Virus record (IMG/VR): IMGVR_UViG_3300049847_000519
Span: 1 to 25,820 of that record
DNA length: 25,820 nucleotides
From: a virus
Reading direction: 5' to 3' (one strand)
Shown: piece by piece, positions 7,212-19,213 of the stretch
How positions within the stretch are numbered: position 1 is the stretch's first letter
Layout of the letters: each line of letters starts with the position of its first letter
Made by a program: the position numbers and the translations under genes
Notes under the pieces: model-generated
Databases searched by the model: none
What the model was told of the DNA's origin: nothing
The model's input: only the letters and a program-made list of their open reading frames with translations

Positions 7212-7730
7212 ATGTTGATCTTCGATGGGGTCTTACAAGATCCCCTTTCCTATCGCACAAGAATCATGGCGGAGCCATTCACCGAGATGACTTATCAGGG
7301 AACCACCTTCCCCGGCATGAGAGAAGCCCCCGTCACCACCTTGGAATGGGCAGCCCTGTTTGCCCTCACCCCTCGCTGCCTGTCCCGCCCGAAGGGCTCT
7401 GCCTTCCGACTCAGTTCCCCGAGCGGAGCACCCAATCCCGCATGGATCCACTCCGATGAATCCATCTCCACCTTCGCTGCCGTTTTGTATCTGACTCCGG
7501 ATGATGCTGGGCAGGGAACCTGCTTCTGGGCTCACCGTGAATGGGGTTCCGTGAACGACGGCACTCGCCCCTGGGCGACGTGCTCGGAGGATCTTTCCGT
7601 CTGGACTCCGCAAGTATTTGTTCCGGGTTTATTTAATCGTTTATTAATCTTCGATGCGAAGTTATTTCACTCCATCTACCCCAAGAAGCCTTTGTCTGAA
7701 CGGTTGGTCCAGGTCTTTTTCTACGATTGA
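7212..7730 (+). CDS. 2OG-Fe(II) oxygenase-like protein
   Basis: A 172-residue protein with the jelly-roll signature of non-haem iron, 2-oxoglutarate oxygenases. The WIHSDE segment gives the HxD pair (His80, Asp82), followed by strand FAAVLYLTP and TCFWAHREWG. NRLLIFDAKLFHSIYPKKPL gives the distal His153, and Arg164 in SERLVQVFFYD is placed to bind 2-oxoglutarate. The shape is close to DUF6445-type prolyl-hydroxylase-like proteins. The substrate is unknown. It starts four bases after a small gene and ends in a 69-base overlap with the convergent phosphoesterase gene, inside which His153 and Arg164 are encoded. Most of its DNA is far GC-richer than the late genes, suggesting acquisition from another source. 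Confidence 0.72.
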   Translation: MLIFDGVLQDPLSYRTRIMAEPFTEMTYQGTTFPGMREAPVTTLEWAALFALTPRCLSRPKGSAFRLSSPSGAPNPAWIHSDESISTFAAVLYLTPDDAGQGTCFWAHREWGSVNDGTRPWATCSEDLSVWTPQVFVPGLFNRLLIFDAKLFHSIYPKKPLSERLVQVFFYD

Positions 7731-8655: not shown

Positions 8656-8687
8656 TATTCTATTTTATAGTATAATCATAGTAAGTG
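8656..8687. promoter_or_regulatory. Very short AT-rich divergent promoter region
   Basis: Only 32 bases separate the zinc-ribbon start (8655) from the TerS ATG (8688). They contain TATAAT on the plus strand (8671-8676) and TATACT on the minus strand over almost the same bases. Neither gene has a good ribosome-binding site, so very short or leaderless transcripts are possible. No -35 box was found on the plus strand. Confidence 0.35.
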
Positions 8688-9371
8688 ATGAGTGAAAAAG
8701 AAGATTTTTATATTGATTCAGTGTTAAAAAAGGATCCTCAGCGAAAATTTGCCATGCGTGGTGGTAAACGGGTCTATGATCCTGATGAACTCCTTGCTTT
8801 AAAGCGCTCTGGATTGCCAAAGCCTGCTGATTGTACTTGGGCTCAGTGGAATGGACCGAAGCAGGGGCTCACTGAGCGTATGAAGTGGATGGCTTACCTT
8901 CGTGTCAATGGTGCTACGAATGAGAATATTGCTCGTGAAGTAGGAATTTCATTGTCTCGTGTCTCAATCATTTCTTCATCACCACGATTTAAAGAATACG
9001 TTTCATACCTTCGATACAAGATCTTCGGAGAAGACACAGAAGATCGTCTAAAGAAGCTTGCTCCGTTATCAGTTGATGTGATCACGGAGACACTTAAATC
9101 ATCTATTGAGAAAGGTTCAGTCAAAGCTGACGTAGCCTTCAGGCTACTTGATCGTGTCTACGGTAAGCCTCAGCAGAAGATTGAACATACTGGGTCTGGG
9201 ATTCGGGAATTAATTGAACGCATCGATCGATCAGGTCGTGAGGCTAATGTTATTGAGGCTGAATATCGTGATGCTAAGGCTTCACTAGATAAATCTGATC
9301 CTGCTGTTGTAGAATTTATTAAAACTTTACCAGGGGTGGTTTCTGAAGAAGAAGAAAAAGATTCGTCATAA
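8688..9371 (+). CDS. terS: Terminase small subunit
   Basis: A 227-residue protein (MSEKEDFYIDSVLKKDPQRK; a GTG three bases earlier is also possible). A helix-turn-helix of the TerS type is visible: MAYLRVNGATNENIAREVG followed by SLSRVSIISSSPRF. It is followed by a helical oligomerisation region and the LLDRVYGKPQQKIEHTG segment that recurs in small terminase subunits. It would bind the packaging site on phage DNA and load it onto the large subunit. The acidic C-terminus (GVVSEEEEKDSS) is typical. It opens the late region, although the large subunit lies about 4.4 kb further on. The stop overlaps a minus-strand zinc-finger gene by six bases. Confidence 0.8.
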   Translation: MSEKEDFYIDSVLKKDPQRKFAMRGGKRVYDPDELLALKRSGLPKPADCTWAQWNGPKQGLTERMKWMAYLRVNGATNENIAREVGISLSRVSIISSSPRFKEYVSYLRYKIFGEDTEDRLKKLAPLSVDVITETLKSSIEKGSVKADVAFRLLDRVYGKPQQKIEHTGSGIRELIERIDRSGREANVIEAEYRDAKASLDKSDPAVVEFIKTLPGVVSEEEEKDSS

Positions 9372-13084: not shown

Positions 13085-13383
13085 TGGCTTTGTTTAAGGA
13101 AATAACCTCAGACTCAGGAGTCGTAGCCACTTATCATAAGATTGTAAGTTTTAATGACAATCGTCTTAGTAAGGTTGCGACAATTGAATTGTCTTCTTTC
13201 CTTAGTGAAGCAACAAAACACTTAGAGCCTATTTCCTCACAGACGTTACTATTTGAAGTAAACGCAACGCTTCCATATGAATTTGAAGCAGTTTATATGG
13301 ATGTTGTTGGTATGAATCATATTAAGAAATGTTATGACATCATCAAAACAATGACCGACTTTATAGGAGCGTTAGACGTATAA
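13084..13383 (+). CDS. Small hypothetical protein
   Basis: A 99-residue protein (MALFKEITSDSGVVATYHKI) linked by a TAATG overlap to the gene before. It has strands in the first half and a short Cys-containing helix near the end (HIKKCYDIIKTMTDFIGAL). Small phage proteins starting 'MALFKEI-x-x-x-SG' are often found near fibre genes, which suggests an accessory virion role. No membrane segment or known motif is present. Confidence 0.65.
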   Translation: MALFKEITSDSGVVATYHKIVSFNDNRLSKVATIELSSFLSEATKHLEPISSQTLLFEVNATLPYEFEAVYMDVVGMNHIKKCYDIIKTMTDFIGALDV

Positions 13384-13601
13384 TGGCACAATTCTCAATC
13401 ACACTTACAGTACCAGACGGAACGGTTGCATCGGCGCTGGCGGCACTTCAAGTTGACTATCCGTTGCATCAGGGTGAGACAAACTTGGTTTACATTAAGA
13501 GAGTGATTAAAGAATTATTAGTAAGACAAGTAACAGAGGGGCAAGCTAGGATTGCTCAAAACGCAATAACATTGCCAGACCTTGGAGTTGTAACGTCATG
13601 A
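13383..13601 (+). CDS. Small hypothetical protein
   Basis: A 72-residue protein starting MAQFSITLTVPDGTVASALA, with a beta strand, then a helix (YIKRVIKELLVRQVTEGQAR) that could oligomerise. Its ATG shares one base with the preceding stop and its TGA overlaps the next ATG (ATGA at 13598). This shows a coupled run of small genes. Similar small proteins accompany fibre genes in other phages; the role is unknown. Confidence 0.65.
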   Translation: MAQFSITLTVPDGTVASALAALQVDYPLHQGETNLVYIKRVIKELLVRQVTEGQARIAQNAITLPDLGVVTS

Positions 13602-13762
13602 ATAAAGAACGTATTGATGCTGCTATTAAGAATGTAGAGTTAATGTGTGAACAGATTCAGGCGAATCTAAAGACACATCAACAGCTTCAGAGTGATTTAC
13701 AGATATTAAAAGATCTTCAAAAATTTTGGTTAGAAAAAAAGGAAACATCTGAATCAGTCTGA
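13598..13762 (+). CDS. 54-residue coiled-coil protein
   Basis: A short gene reading MNKERIDAAIKNVELMCEQI, then QANLKTHQQLQSDLQILKDL and a basic/acidic end. Regular spacing of Ile, Leu and Val gives a continuous amphipathic helix, probably a coiled-coil dimer or trimer. Its start lies in the stop of the gene before (ATGA), and its last 14 bases overlap the proposed CTG start of the terminase ATPase gene. A connector or regulatory peptide is possible; the function is unknown. Confidence 0.6.
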   Translation: MNKERIDAAIKNVELMCEQIQANLKTHQQLQSDLQILKDLQKFWLEKKETSESV

Positions 13763-14417
13763 GTCATCTATTCTCGGGAGAATCCAGTTATTCAAGAATG
13801 ATCCTTGGGCTTTCCTTACTCATTGTGTTTATACGATTGATCAGGCGGACAAGTTAGATTCAATCAAACGATTCCCGTCTGATCTAAAGTATCTTGAATA
13901 CTACACGCGCGCATGGCAGATGACGGATCGTATTGCTATTCCGAAGTCTCGTCGCATGCTTCTCTCGTGGGTGAATATTGCACTTCATCTTCACATGGCT
14001 ATGTTTAACATAGGTAAGGCTGTGGCATTCGTATCTAAGAAAGAAGAAGATGCTGATGAATTGATAAAGAAAGCAAAATTTATCTACGATCGTATTCCTG
14101 AGACTGAGATACCTAAAGAATATAAGCCTCGTGTTGAATATAAATTTTGTCAGATGAATTTTCCTGAACTAGATTCTTCTATTAGGGGATTTCCTCAAGG
14201 TGCGGACCAGCTTCGTCAGTTCACCTTTTCTGCTATAATGGCAGATGAAATGGCATTCTGGGAAAACGCTCAACTTATGTATGCAGCTTCGTTTCCGACA
14301 CTTGAAGGTGGAGGTAAATTTACTGCCATCTCATCTCCTGCTCCAGGATTCTTCAAACGTTTAGTTTTTGATCGTCTTGAAGACAATGTGGCTAATGATT
14401 CATCGGAGTCAGGATGA
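13749..14417 (+). CDS. terL: Terminase large subunit, ATPase domain (split gene)
   Basis: The frame holds the N-terminal part of a large terminase: LFKNDPWAFLTHCVYTIDQA, then IPKSRRMLLSW in the Walker A position (a degenerate form seen in some phage terminases), SAIMADEMAFW as Walker B with Asp-Glu, and FTAISSPAPG as the coupling motif. The first standard start, ATG 13920, would cut off essential sequence. CTG at 13749 has AAGGA five bases upstream and fits; ATT 13770 and ATC 13782 are weaker options. With CTG the protein has 222 residues. It powers DNA entry into the prohead. The frame ends at TGA 14415-14417, and the nuclease domain continues in another frame at 14414. Confidence 0.78.
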   Translation: MNQSESSILGRIQLFKNDPWAFLTHCVYTIDQADKLDSIKRFPSDLKYLEYYTRAWQMTDRIAIPKSRRMLLSWVNIALHLHMAMFNIGKAVAFVSKKEEDADELIKKAKFIYDRIPETEIPKEYKPRVEYKFCQMNFPELDSSIRGFPQGADQLRQFTFSAIMADEMAFWENAQLMYAASFPTLEGGGKFTAISSPAPGFFKRLVFDRLEDNVANDSSESG

Positions 14418-15310
14418 AGTTACAACCAGGAGAGCGCGCTTATCCATGTGAAGGTGTAGAAGTTTGGGTAAATCCAAAGAATAAGTTCACTGTATTTCAA
14501 ATTCATTACTCAGCGGACCCTAAAAAACGCTCTAAAGCCTATCGTGATAATATTAAGTCAGCGATGCCGATCCGACAGTTCATGCAAGAATATGAACTAC
14601 GTTGGGAGTCATTTTCAGGCTTGCCAGTATTTCCCGATTGGGATTCTAGGGTGCATGGGTCCAAGGAAGGACTCTCACCCGTAGCAGGATTACCTTTACT
14701 TCGTGCATGGGACTGGGGATTAACGCCAGCTTGTTTAATATGTCAGATGCAGGAAGATACACTTGTAGTCTTGCGTGAGATTACAGAGATCAACATGGGT
14801 GCGGATAGATTTTCAGATAAAGTTCTTGCTATATGTCAGGCTGAATTTCCTCAGTGGTGGAATATGGAACAACATTGGATTGATTTCATAGATCCTTCTG
14901 GAGAATTTCGTAAAGATACGGACGAGAATACTTGCGCGCTGATTCTGATAAAGAAGGGCATGAAACCCATTCCTGGAGCGATAGCTTGGGAAGAACGTCG
15001 TCAGTCGGTAGAGCATTTCTTAACTAGATCTATTCGCGGTAAGTCATGTTTTAAAGTTGATGCGACGAAGTGTCCCGTTTTGGTTCGTGGGTTTGAGGGG
15101 GGTTATCGATATGATGAAAAACATATTGATCTTGAACCTACAAAGGTACGACCATTGAAAGATGAGCACTCACATATACAAGATGCACTTCAGATGGTAA
15201 CTTCTCGAATACGGACACTAAAGCGTAGTGGAATTGTTTCAGTACCGTCCCCTTATTATGCATTTGGAAAGGTAACTACTCATGGCAGAGATGGTTTCGG
15301 AAGATACTGA
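14414..15310 (+). CDS. terL: Terminase large subunit, nuclease domain (split gene)
   Basis: A 298-residue protein that carries the rest of TerL: a linker (RQFMQEYELRWESFSGLPVF) and an RNase H-like nuclease with acidic residues in AWDWGL (Asp100), WIDFIDPSG (Asp157/Asp160) and HIQDALQMV (Asp257). It would cut concatemeric DNA at the packaging site. It begins with ATG at 14414, fused to the stop of the ATPase gene (ATGA), with GGAG upstream. The reading frame is closed by TGA at 14396-14398, so any frameshift fusion would have to happen within 19 bases, where no slippery sequence is seen. Two separate, coupled polypeptides are the simplest reading. Confidence 0.85.
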   Translation: MKLQPGERAYPCEGVEVWVNPKNKFTVFQIHYSADPKKRSKAYRDNIKSAMPIRQFMQEYELRWESFSGLPVFPDWDSRVHGSKEGLSPVAGLPLLRAWDWGLTPACLICQMQEDTLVVLREITEINMGADRFSDKVLAICQAEFPQWWNMEQHWIDFIDPSGEFRKDTDENTCALILIKKGMKPIPGAIAWEERRQSVEHFLTRSIRGKSCFKVDATKCPVLVRGFEGGYRYDEKHIDLEPTKVRPLKDEHSHIQDALQMVTSRIRTLKRSGIVSVPSPYYAFGKVTTHGRDGFGRY

Positions 15311-17195
15311 TCAGGAAGTTCTAAGGGCGATACAGGATTACGTTGAGGAAGCGACATATGCGAAGCGTATTCGCATGGAAGATAATTCTCGTAATTTCGA
15401 CTCTTATCACATGAAGCAAGACTTCTCCCATAAGCGTAAGGGTCAGTCTAAAGAGTTCTTACCGAAGCAGTCGATGGCAGTTGAGCAGATCTCTGCATTC
15501 ATGGAGCAGGGATTGATTGATGTAGGTCAGTTCTTCAAGGTTGAGCCCATGCCTGGTAATGTGGCTCCTGTATTTACTACGGATGAGATTTCTAAGATTG
15601 TTCTAGCACAGTTAAATAAGAATGATTTCCCTGCATACGTGTCGGACTCTTTGAAGTTAGGACTTCTCGGATCGCTTATGATCTCAAAAGTTCATGGATG
15701 CATGGTATCTAAATCTAAATTTGTTGTCGAAGATGACCTCAAGGTTGTGGGCAAGGTAAATCTTAAGAAGAAAGAAGATATGGTCTGGCAATTGAAGCTA
15801 GATCTAGTCCGACAAGAGGACTTCTTCCCAGATCCTACGGGTCGTGGACTGTATCAGATTCAGCGCATTGAAATGGATAAGCATGAGCTTATTCGTTTAG
15901 CTAAGAAGAATACAAAAATTTTCAATATGGAAGCCATTGAGTCTTTGAATGCTATGGCTGAAGGTGAGCAGGATAATAGAAAGTATTCTGAGACCAATCA
16001 ACAGCAAGACATGATAACGCGCTCTCGTCGAAAACCTGTCATCGTTCATGAACTCTGGGGGACAGTGCTAGATTCTACTGGCAATGTTTTACGAGAAGAT
16101 GTCGTGGCGTCATCTGCAAATGAGAATCAATTGATTCGTAAGCCATCTGATAATCCATTCTGGCATGGTAAGTCTCCATTCGTAGTATCTCCGTTGATTC
16201 GGGTTCCAAAATCTGTCTGGCATCGCGCACTAATGGATGCTCCTACTGCGCTAAATGCTATTGAGAACGAGCTTTACAATTTAATGCTCGATGCTGGAAT
16301 GATGTCCGTTCACGGTATTCGTCAGCTTCGTGAACAATGGTTAGATGATCCTTCGCAAGTGAAGGAAGGCGTATTTGCAGGGGACACGTTGATTGTTAAT
16401 TCTTCCTGCCCTCCAGGCGGCAAGGTTCTTGAGCGTGTGGATTCTTCTGAAGTTCCTGCTGAAGCAATATCTGTGTTGAATCTTACGGATAAGGAATTTC
16501 AGGTATCTGCACTTACGAATGATCTTCGCTTGGGCATACTGCCTACGCGCGCGGTGAAGGCTACGGAAGTAGTAGCAGCGAATCAGAGCATTTCAGGGAT
16601 ATTCTCTGCAATCGCACGCATTGTCGAGTCGACATACATTGAGCGCATCATTGATCTTGCATGGATGAATACGGTTCAGCATTTCCATGAACTTGATCGA
16701 GATGAACTCATTGCACTTATTGGAAAGGATAGAGCGAATGAATTACTGGCGTTATCGCCGGAAGAGATATTTGCGGGTTCTGTTAATGGACACAAGTTCA
16801 AGGTATTCGGTATATCTCTCACGCTCGATAAACAAAAAGATTTCAGAAAGCTTACGTCCTTGCTTCAAACGATTGCGGGAAGCGAATCGCTTGTCCAAGC
16901 ATTCACAGAGAAGTACTCGTTTTCTAAGTTACTTGGAGAAATCGTCAAGTCACTAGATATGAATGAGGAGAAGATTAAGATTGATGCCGCTTCGCCGAAA
17001 GATATGGGTGAGAAGCAGGACATTCGACAGATGTTGATGTCACAAATCATGGGCGGCAAAGGTGCAGGTGGTGCGCAGCCAGGGGAACAATCTCAGATGC
17101 CGCAAGCTTCGGCAGGGAGTGCTAATCCTCAACCTGGAGGCGAAGCATCGCAGTTGAATACCGGAATGATTCCTACTGCTGGAGCAAATAGATGA
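15282..17195 (+). CDS. Portal protein
   Basis: A 637-residue protein with the order and motifs of podovirus-type head-tail connectors: an acidic N-terminal helix (EDTDQEVLRAIQDYVEEATY), a central domain with strands (KLDLVRQEDFFPDPTGRGLY), and the helical crown and stem region around RALMDAPTALNAIENELYNL. The Gln/Gly/Ala-rich C-terminus is disordered. Twelve copies would form the ring through which DNA is pumped, docked to the terminase at one face and to the adaptor at the other. AAAGG lies nine bases before the ATG, and the gene overlaps the nuclease gene by 29 bases. Family placement is confident. Confidence 0.85.
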   Translation: MAEMVSEDTDQEVLRAIQDYVEEATYAKRIRMEDNSRNFDSYHMKQDFSHKRKGQSKEFLPKQSMAVEQISAFMEQGLIDVGQFFKVEPMPGNVAPVFTTDEISKIVLAQLNKNDFPAYVSDSLKLGLLGSLMISKVHGCMVSKSKFVVEDDLKVVGKVNLKKKEDMVWQLKLDLVRQEDFFPDPTGRGLYQIQRIEMDKHELIRLAKKNTKIFNMEAIESLNAMAEGEQDNRKYSETNQQQDMITRSRRKPVIVHELWGTVLDSTGNVLREDVVASSANENQLIRKPSDNPFWHGKSPFVVSPLIRVPKSVWHRALMDAPTALNAIENELYNLMLDAGMMSVHGIRQLREQWLDDPSQVKEGVFAGDTLIVNSSCPPGGKVLERVDSSEVPAEAISVLNLTDKEFQVSALTNDLRLGILPTRAVKATEVVAANQSISGIFSAIARIVESTYIERIIDLAWMNTVQHFHELDRDELIALIGKDRANELLALSPEEIFAGSVNGHKFKVFGISLTLDKQKDFRKLTSLLQTIAGSESLVQAFTEKYSFSKLLGEIVKSLDMNEEKIKIDAASPKDMGEKQDIRQMLMSQIMGGKGAGGAQPGEQSQMPQASAGSANPQPGGEASQLNTGMIPTAGANR

Positions 17196-18265: not shown

Positions 18266-19213
18266 ATGGCTACATTTACATGGGGTTTTGATGCCCCAAG
18301 TGGAACCTTCAAGCAAAATGCCCTTTCATCTCTACTTCGTAATGCTGCAATCGCTGAAGCGAAATTTTTGCAGTTTGTGAAACCAGAGCCAGGGTATGGG
18401 AAAAAAATGGGTGAAAGTGTTACTCTCACTCGTATTTCCAACTTGACGACTCCCACAAGCGGACGTTTGACAGAAAACATTAAGATTCCTGAAGATGCAT
18501 TGTCGATCACGACTGTATCTATCACGGTATCTGAGTGGGGCCGCTCGGTTCCATTCACAAGCTTCTCAGAAGATCTGATGAAGTTTAATCTTGAGAACAT
18601 CGTGCAGATGAAGTTGAAAGATCAGATGAAACTGGTCCTCGACAATGCTTGCTGCGATGCTTTTCAGACTGCAAAGATTAAGTATGTACCTACTGGCGTA
18701 GCCTCAAATTCTATCGCTACGAACGGAACGGCACCTACTTCAGCTCTTGCAAACCTAAACGTATTCCATGCTGAACAGATTCGTGACTACTTGTATGCGA
18801 ATCTTTTCGCTCCAGGCTACGAAGGTGATGACTATATTGGTCTCGTGTCTACAAAAGGTAAACGCGGACTTATGTCTGATCCAGCTTGGGAAGAATGGCA
18901 TAAATATACAGATCCACAATCGAAGTACAATTCTGAAGTCGGTAGACTTGAGAACATTCGATGGATTGAAGTTAACAACACTGGAGCATTGTCGGGATCT
19001 CTCGGCACTGGTTCGGTCCTTGGTGAAGCTGTTGTCTTCGGCGCTGACGCTGTAGCAATGGCTGTTGTGACAGATCCAGAATTACGAGCAATGATTCCAC
19101 AAGATTTCGGTCGCAGTAAGGCTGTAGCTTGGTATGGTGTCCTTGATTTCGGTATTATCTGGGATACTGGTAACCCTGGTGAAGCACGTATCGTGCACGT
19201 AACCAGCACCTAA
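18266..19213 (+). CDS. Major capsid protein, N4-gp56 type
   Basis: A 315-residue protein of the N4-gp56 major capsid family (HK97 fold). Typical blocks are ALSSLLRNAAIAEAKFLQFV, GKKMGESVTLTRISNLT, LTENIKIPEDALSITTVSIT and WGRSVPFTSFSEDLMKFN, then the A-domain and the C-terminal strands (VFGADAVAMAVVTDPELRAM). Several hundred copies would form the head shell. Start and ribosome-binding site (GGAGG) are clear, and it follows the scaffold gene. There is no sign of an N-terminal maturation (delta) domain. Family and role are both confident. Confidence 0.9.
   Translation: MATFTWGFDAPSGTFKQNALSSLLRNAAIAEAKFLQFVKPEPGYGKKMGESVTLTRISNLTTPTSGRLTENIKIPEDALSITTVSITVSEWGRSVPFTSFSEDLMKFNLENIVQMKLKDQMKLVLDNACCDAFQTAKIKYVPTGVASNSIATNGTAPTSALANLNVFHAEQIRDYLYANLFAPGYEGDDYIGLVSTKGKRGLMSDPAWEEWHKYTDPQSKYNSEVGRLENIRWIEVNNTGALSGSLGTGSVLGEAVVFGADAVAMAVVTDPELRAMIPQDFGRSKAVAWYGVLDFGIIWDTGNPGEARIVHVTST

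Follow-up and report, generated by a model that had tools for sequence, protein, structure and literature searches.

The large terminase (TerL) of an uncultivated phage, represented by an IMG/VR virus record of 25,820 bases (the window, meaning the whole stretch analysed), is probably made as two polypeptides. As read from the sequence, chain 1 would hold the ATPase core, and chain 2 would hold the hinge and nuclease, preceded by the final strand and helices of the ATPase domain. The TerLs of T4 (gp17), D6E, P74-26/G20c, Sf6 and HK97 contain the same ATPase and RNase H-fold nuclease domains, and T4 gp17 and other two-domain TerLs are single polypeptides. In contrast, the window phage carries these motifs on two ORFs, which lie in different frames and share a stop/start overlap. 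Comparison of related loci indicates that the split is a real and recurrent trait of a large uncultivated group.

The ATPase frame runs from 13734, directly after a TAG, to the TGA at 14415–14417. The nuclease frame is open from 14399 to 15310, and the first ATG in it is at 14414. The translations located the ATPase and nuclease motifs where the sequence-only reading had placed them, in different frames joined by ATGA, and reproduced the opening of the nuclease frame. The features of the locus are summarized in Table 1. Pfam returned no match to either TerL half. Genes for the portal, the capsid (at 18266) and a candidate small terminase subunit are all present, which points to a normal packaging module. 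Elsewhere in the window, the ORF at 7212–7730 resembles a 2-oxoglutarate/Fe(II) oxygenase by eye (HSDESI...HSIYPK...R).

Table 1. Features of the split terminase locus and its surroundings in the window.
Feature	Position	Strand	Evidence
Candidate small terminase subunit, GTG start	8685..9371	+	PHROG phrog_2538 terminase small subunit, E 1.8e-5
Small upstream ORF, 54 aa, 3' end overlapping the ATPase ORF	13598..13762	+	Sequence
AGGA, Shine-Dalgarno-like, five bases before CTG 13749	13740..13743	+	Duplex -5.6 kcal/mol
TerL chain 1, ATPase core, 222 aa from the proposed CTG start	13749..14417	+	PHROG phrog_2 terminase large subunit, E 2e-7
Walker A-like motif PKSRRMLLSW, lysine at motif front	13941..13970	+	K66 S67 R68 R69 M70 W74 invariant in 13 sequences
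Walker B and catalytic carboxylate, AIMADEMAFW	14232..14261	+	D166 E167 invariant in 13 sequences
Motif III / coupling motif, Ser-Ser	14331..14336	+	Aligned near T4 gp17 286-288
GGAG, Shine-Dalgarno site for chain 2, within the 3' end of the chain 1 ORF	14405..14408	+	Duplex -6.1 kcal/mol
ATGA stop/start overlap of the two ORFs	14414..14417	+	Sequence; same overlap in L017, L018, L075
TerL chain 2, 298 aa	14414..15310	+	PHROG phrog_10250 terminase large subunit, E 2.5e-7; structure matches
Chain 2 content: end of ATPase domain, hinge, RNase H-fold nuclease	14414..15310	+	
Chain 2 residues 1-67, ATPase-domain segment in fused relatives	14414..14614	+	Fused L012 model; structure matches
Nuclease domain, chain 2 residues 68-272	14615..15229	+	Z 21.1 to D6E TerL; Z 14.2 to T4 gp17 361-560
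Catalytic Asp codons of the nuclease domain	14711, 14891, 15182	+	D100, D160, D257 invariant in 20 sequences
Portal protein gene, overlapping the chain 2 end by 29 bases	15282..17195	+	PHROG phrog_1216 portal, E 2.9e-15

Chain 1 is 43–63% identical to 12 homologues and has the ATPase core of a TerL, in which K66-SRRM, D166 E167 and S195 are invariant across 13 sequences; the surveyed split relatives have the same AIMADEMAFW motif. Similarity to relatives is seen from about 13770 onward, but no ATG, GTG or TTG occurs in the ATPase frame between 13734 and 13920. For this reason CTG 13749 is proposed as the likely start of chain 1, which would overlap the preceding small ORF by 14 bases. The related locus L017 has an ATG with comparable spacing to the conserved DPWAF. 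A non-standard start would be the second oddity in the same gene, a point against the two-polypeptide interpretation.

The second ORF had been described as the nuclease by the sequence-only reading. Its WDWG motif (Asp at 14711–14713) and HIQDALQ motif (Asp at 15182–15184) bear this out, and the three invariant acidic residues and the similarity in fold to TerL nucleases (Z 14–21) identify an RNase H-fold nuclease, but the description does not fit the first ~67 residues, which belong to the ATPase domain. Chain 2 matches TerL nuclease domains only from residue 67–70 onward (T4 361), which indicates that the preceding segment completes the ATPase domain in fused relatives. In the predicted structure of the fused L012 TerL (mean pLDDT 91.9), residues 1–281 align to the crystallised T4 gp17 ATPase domain (101–358) with a Z score of 25.3 and an rmsd of 2.4. 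The window cut corresponds on this model to about L012 residues 209–224, the loop that connects the GFF helix to the YPMEGVEV strand, and lies near T4 residue 300 when interpolated from motif III at T4 286–288. On this prediction, the ATPase domain itself is interrupted, in a single loop ~65 residues N-terminal to the nuclease domain. When chain 2 is folded alone, its first ~67 residues have a pLDDT of ~50–74, whereas most of the nuclease domain reaches ~90 or higher. This is as expected if the segment needs chain 1; it could instead reflect a shallower alignment (20 versus 66 sequences).

According to the passages of PMC3012670 and PMC9958956 that cite Kanamaru 2004, T4 gp17 cut at the hinge keeps both activities and translocation is abolished. 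The window cut differs in lying upstream of the hinge. The cuts in all natural splits surveyed leave the hinge intact, and a mechanism that spares it would agree with the T4 result.

The junction has the anatomy of a translationally coupled gene pair, in which the ATGA overlap is preceded by a GGAG site within the upstream ORF. This GGAG lies five bases 5' of ATG 14414, is conserved in L017 and is predicted to form a stronger duplex (-6.1 kcal/mol) than the median of the 558 ATGs in the window (-2.7). The 14 bases around the ATG (GGAGTCAGsATGAA) are identical at 13 positions between the window and L017, against an overall identity of 59%; the start region ranks in the top 0.9% of 14-base segments for similarity, and these conserved bases sit in an otherwise variable linker. 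Two other 4-base overlaps occur in the window operon (the 13383–13601 ORF into 13598, and the portal gene into 17192), and two more gene pairs overlap by 1 base, with Shine-Dalgarno sites of comparable strength. The proposal of coupled termination and re-initiation is supported by this resemblance of the overlap and ribosome-binding site to those of other operon gene pairs, and translation of chain 2 may depend on termination of chain 1. A stop/start overlap recurs in 10 other relatives, which argues that the overlap is not a product of chance.

Relatives were collected by profile scans of IMG/VR and bacterial genomes, which gave 45 loci in the first survey and 80 in the second (375 candidates). 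They were classified as fused or split by two profile HMMs and reduced to 84 non-redundant representatives: 57 fused and 27 that are either split or ATPase-only. The latter comprise 15 splits with adjacent halves and 12 with distant halves or the ATPase alone; ATPase-only short contigs (e.g. L037, L043 and L046) are called split by kinship to L040, L045, L049 and L056 only, whose nuclease genes were located. Two Selenomonadales bin loci (L150 and L151) were left out of the intact splits because of their short nuclease matches; the nuclease half that follows the split ATPase appears broken or shortened there. Among bacterial bins, those of Synergistaceae, Selenomonadales, Latescibacterota and Bacillota also contain split loci; the two Megasphaera isolates carry a fused TerL. 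No close relative was found among cultured phages, in which the best tblastn matches are below 60% identity; the annotated matches examined are fused TerLs, except that of Aeromonas phage PX29. Close to the first catalytic Asp, the nuclease domain of two fused relatives (L133:3024-5555 and L134:1-2130) contains a ~330-residue insertion that is probably an intein.

By protein identity, the homologues nearest to the window include both fused and split forms, which counts against the two-polypeptide reading. Of the relatives found first, L002 was the closest; its TerL is a single uninterrupted 554-residue chain, 57–59% identical, and L012, found by the ATPase-half scan, is also fused. The tree partner of the window is L017, which is split and 64% identical over the ATPase half, with modest support for the grouping (87/82), a further point against that reading. 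The ATPase tree requires 9 changes between the two states, of which starred branches force at least 4, and the joint ATPase and nuclease tree requires 8 (bootstrap range 7–9), at least 3 of them forced. Strongly supported pairs mix the states, such as L002 (fused) and L018 (split). The forms appear to have interconverted about 8 times on the tree, counted without direction. The sequence-only reading had suggested aligning related genomes to check conservation of the split; among the relatives the split recurs at the same loop. Relatives with one continuous frame had been named as evidence against the split; L002 and 56 other representatives are literally of this kind, yet they make a weak test, since fused and split forms alternate on the tree.

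The splits take several forms. In eleven loci including the window, adjacent halves have a stop/start overlap of 4 bases (the window, L017, L018 and L075), 8 bases (L029, L032 and L073), 11 bases (L033) or 14 bases (L028, L076 and L079), in two frame relations. In L050, L054 and L142, the ATG lies a few bases 3' of the stop. Other relatives have unrelated genes separating the two halves. In L016, found by the same scan as L012, the ATPase half ends at the same place and is followed by four small ORFs before the nuclease gene. The halves are also apart in L052, L053, L055 and L057–L060 (0.4–0.8 kb between the halves) and in L036, where the nuclease lies 3.7 kb downstream of the ATPase half. In the clade of L040, L045, L049 and L056, the two genes are on opposite strands, ~5–8 kb apart when L049 is taken as circular. 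Catalytic motifs are retained in the split halves surveyed, and nothing points to a second complete TerL, as phrog_2 gives at most one match per record in 15 records. Readthrough of a TAG stop was considered for L050, whose halves share a frame, and was rejected because its close kin L052–L060 differ in stops, frames or intervening genes. Near the split terminase genes, a tRNA gene lies upstream in L053 (L053:885-957), and a GroEL-like gene (~520 aa) with a small GroES-like gene was recognized by eye downstream in L052, L053 and L057.

These varied arrangements bear on two explanations that would restore a single chain, a sequencing or assembly indel in an ordinary terL and a programmed frameshift at the junction. 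Fused close relatives such as L002 exist, and a small indel in the variable linker would leave no trace in the protein alignment, but an indel would not create an ATG precisely at the stop together with its Shine-Dalgarno site. The same ATGA junction also occurs in L017, which comes from another dataset, and the split falls at the same loop in many contigs, with differing frames, intervening genes or opposite strands. We regard an indel as very unlikely. A frameshift that yields a fused TerL, whether as the sole product or together with the short chain, is about equally improbable. The frames share 19 bases in the window, where a -1 shift would produce a fusion; a programmed event, with a slippery site and one conserved frame relation, is not what the loci display, as no X XXY YYZ heptamer was seen by eye in 14399–14417, in line with the sequence-only reading, and the two frame relations among relatives would require -1 in some and +1 in others. 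Frameshifting is also unable to join genes that are separated or on opposite strands. Together, relatives with varied overlaps and frames, intervening genes and opposite strands disfavour both explanations and back the production of two polypeptides.

Decay of the gene, in a phage that is defective or uses another packaging motor, is less probable still. The lack of an ATG, GTG or TTG start for the conserved ATPase N-terminus could be taken as a sign of decay, but all catalytic residues are kept, the portal, capsid and small-terminase genes are present, and phrog_2 finds only the one terminase match.

The known broken terL genes raise the explanation that the halves are rejoined by an intron or a split intein. 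In vibriophage ICP1, terL (gp129-128) consists of two ORFs whose transcript is spliced to one coding sequence, as found by RNA-seq and RT-PCR (PMC10448857); the splicing is also described in PMC9040626. Aeromonas phage PX29 has two gp17 ORFs (17A/17B), and the halves are probably joined by protein trans-splicing, given the annotated N- and C-inteins and GIY-YIG endonuclease. In Mic1, inteins lie within TerL (PMC7156551). All three are expected to yield one TerL. The window shares two terL ORFs with ICP1 and PX29, but rejoining is extremely improbable in it: the 4-base overlap leaves no room for an intron between the ORFs, the Rfam search found no intron in the window or in ten relatives' loci (which gave only a tRNA), and the inteins and endonuclease of PX29 are absent from the window terL, where chain 1 ends ~20 residues past the conserved GFF and chain 2 starts ~10 before the conserved YPxxGVEVW, ends as short as the 25–40-residue linker of fused relatives and too short to hold intein pieces.

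The sequence comparisons make it very likely that the split gives two proteins that assemble. We propose that ribosomes finishing chain 1 would re-initiate at the overlapping ATG and yield chain 2 in amounts matched to chain 1. The N-terminal segment of chain 2 would then dock on chain 1 and complete the ATPase fold, as in the fused model, so that the working motor subunit would be a non-covalent heterodimer with an intact hinge. A more far-reaching and doubtful suggestion is that the motor of this clade has two separable parts, the ATPase ring and the hinge-nuclease chain, with chain 2 exchanged or present in other numbers than chain 1, and translocation and headful cutting set by a bound partner rather than a fixed hinge. 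The opposite-strand clade would be the extreme case if this is true.

Two-polypeptide TerLs touch on the question of how force is transmitted from the ATPase via the hinge and nuclease domain to the DNA. Phages have cut TerL repeatedly at a loop other than the hinge, with the motor apparently still working, and nature may already have tested whether the engine and cutter of a packaging motor need to be joined. The split marks a site where the chain can be broken and predicts that the inseparable piece is the end of the ATPase domain with the hinge and nuclease. In such natural two-part motors, the parts could be mixed, swapped and titrated.

No published description of a TerL left as two polypeptides was found in the open-licence literature. 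The known broken terL genes (the ICP1 intron and the PX29 split intein) are rejoined. Many 'truncated' terL genes in metagenomes may be real and complete as pairs, which is a caution for annotation. Chain 2-type proteins match short PHROG 'terminase large subunit' families (phrog_10250, 5653 and 6672, with 228, 199 and 145 positions), and thus short nuclease-type terminase entries are already in databases, as clusters with no described split arrangement or function.
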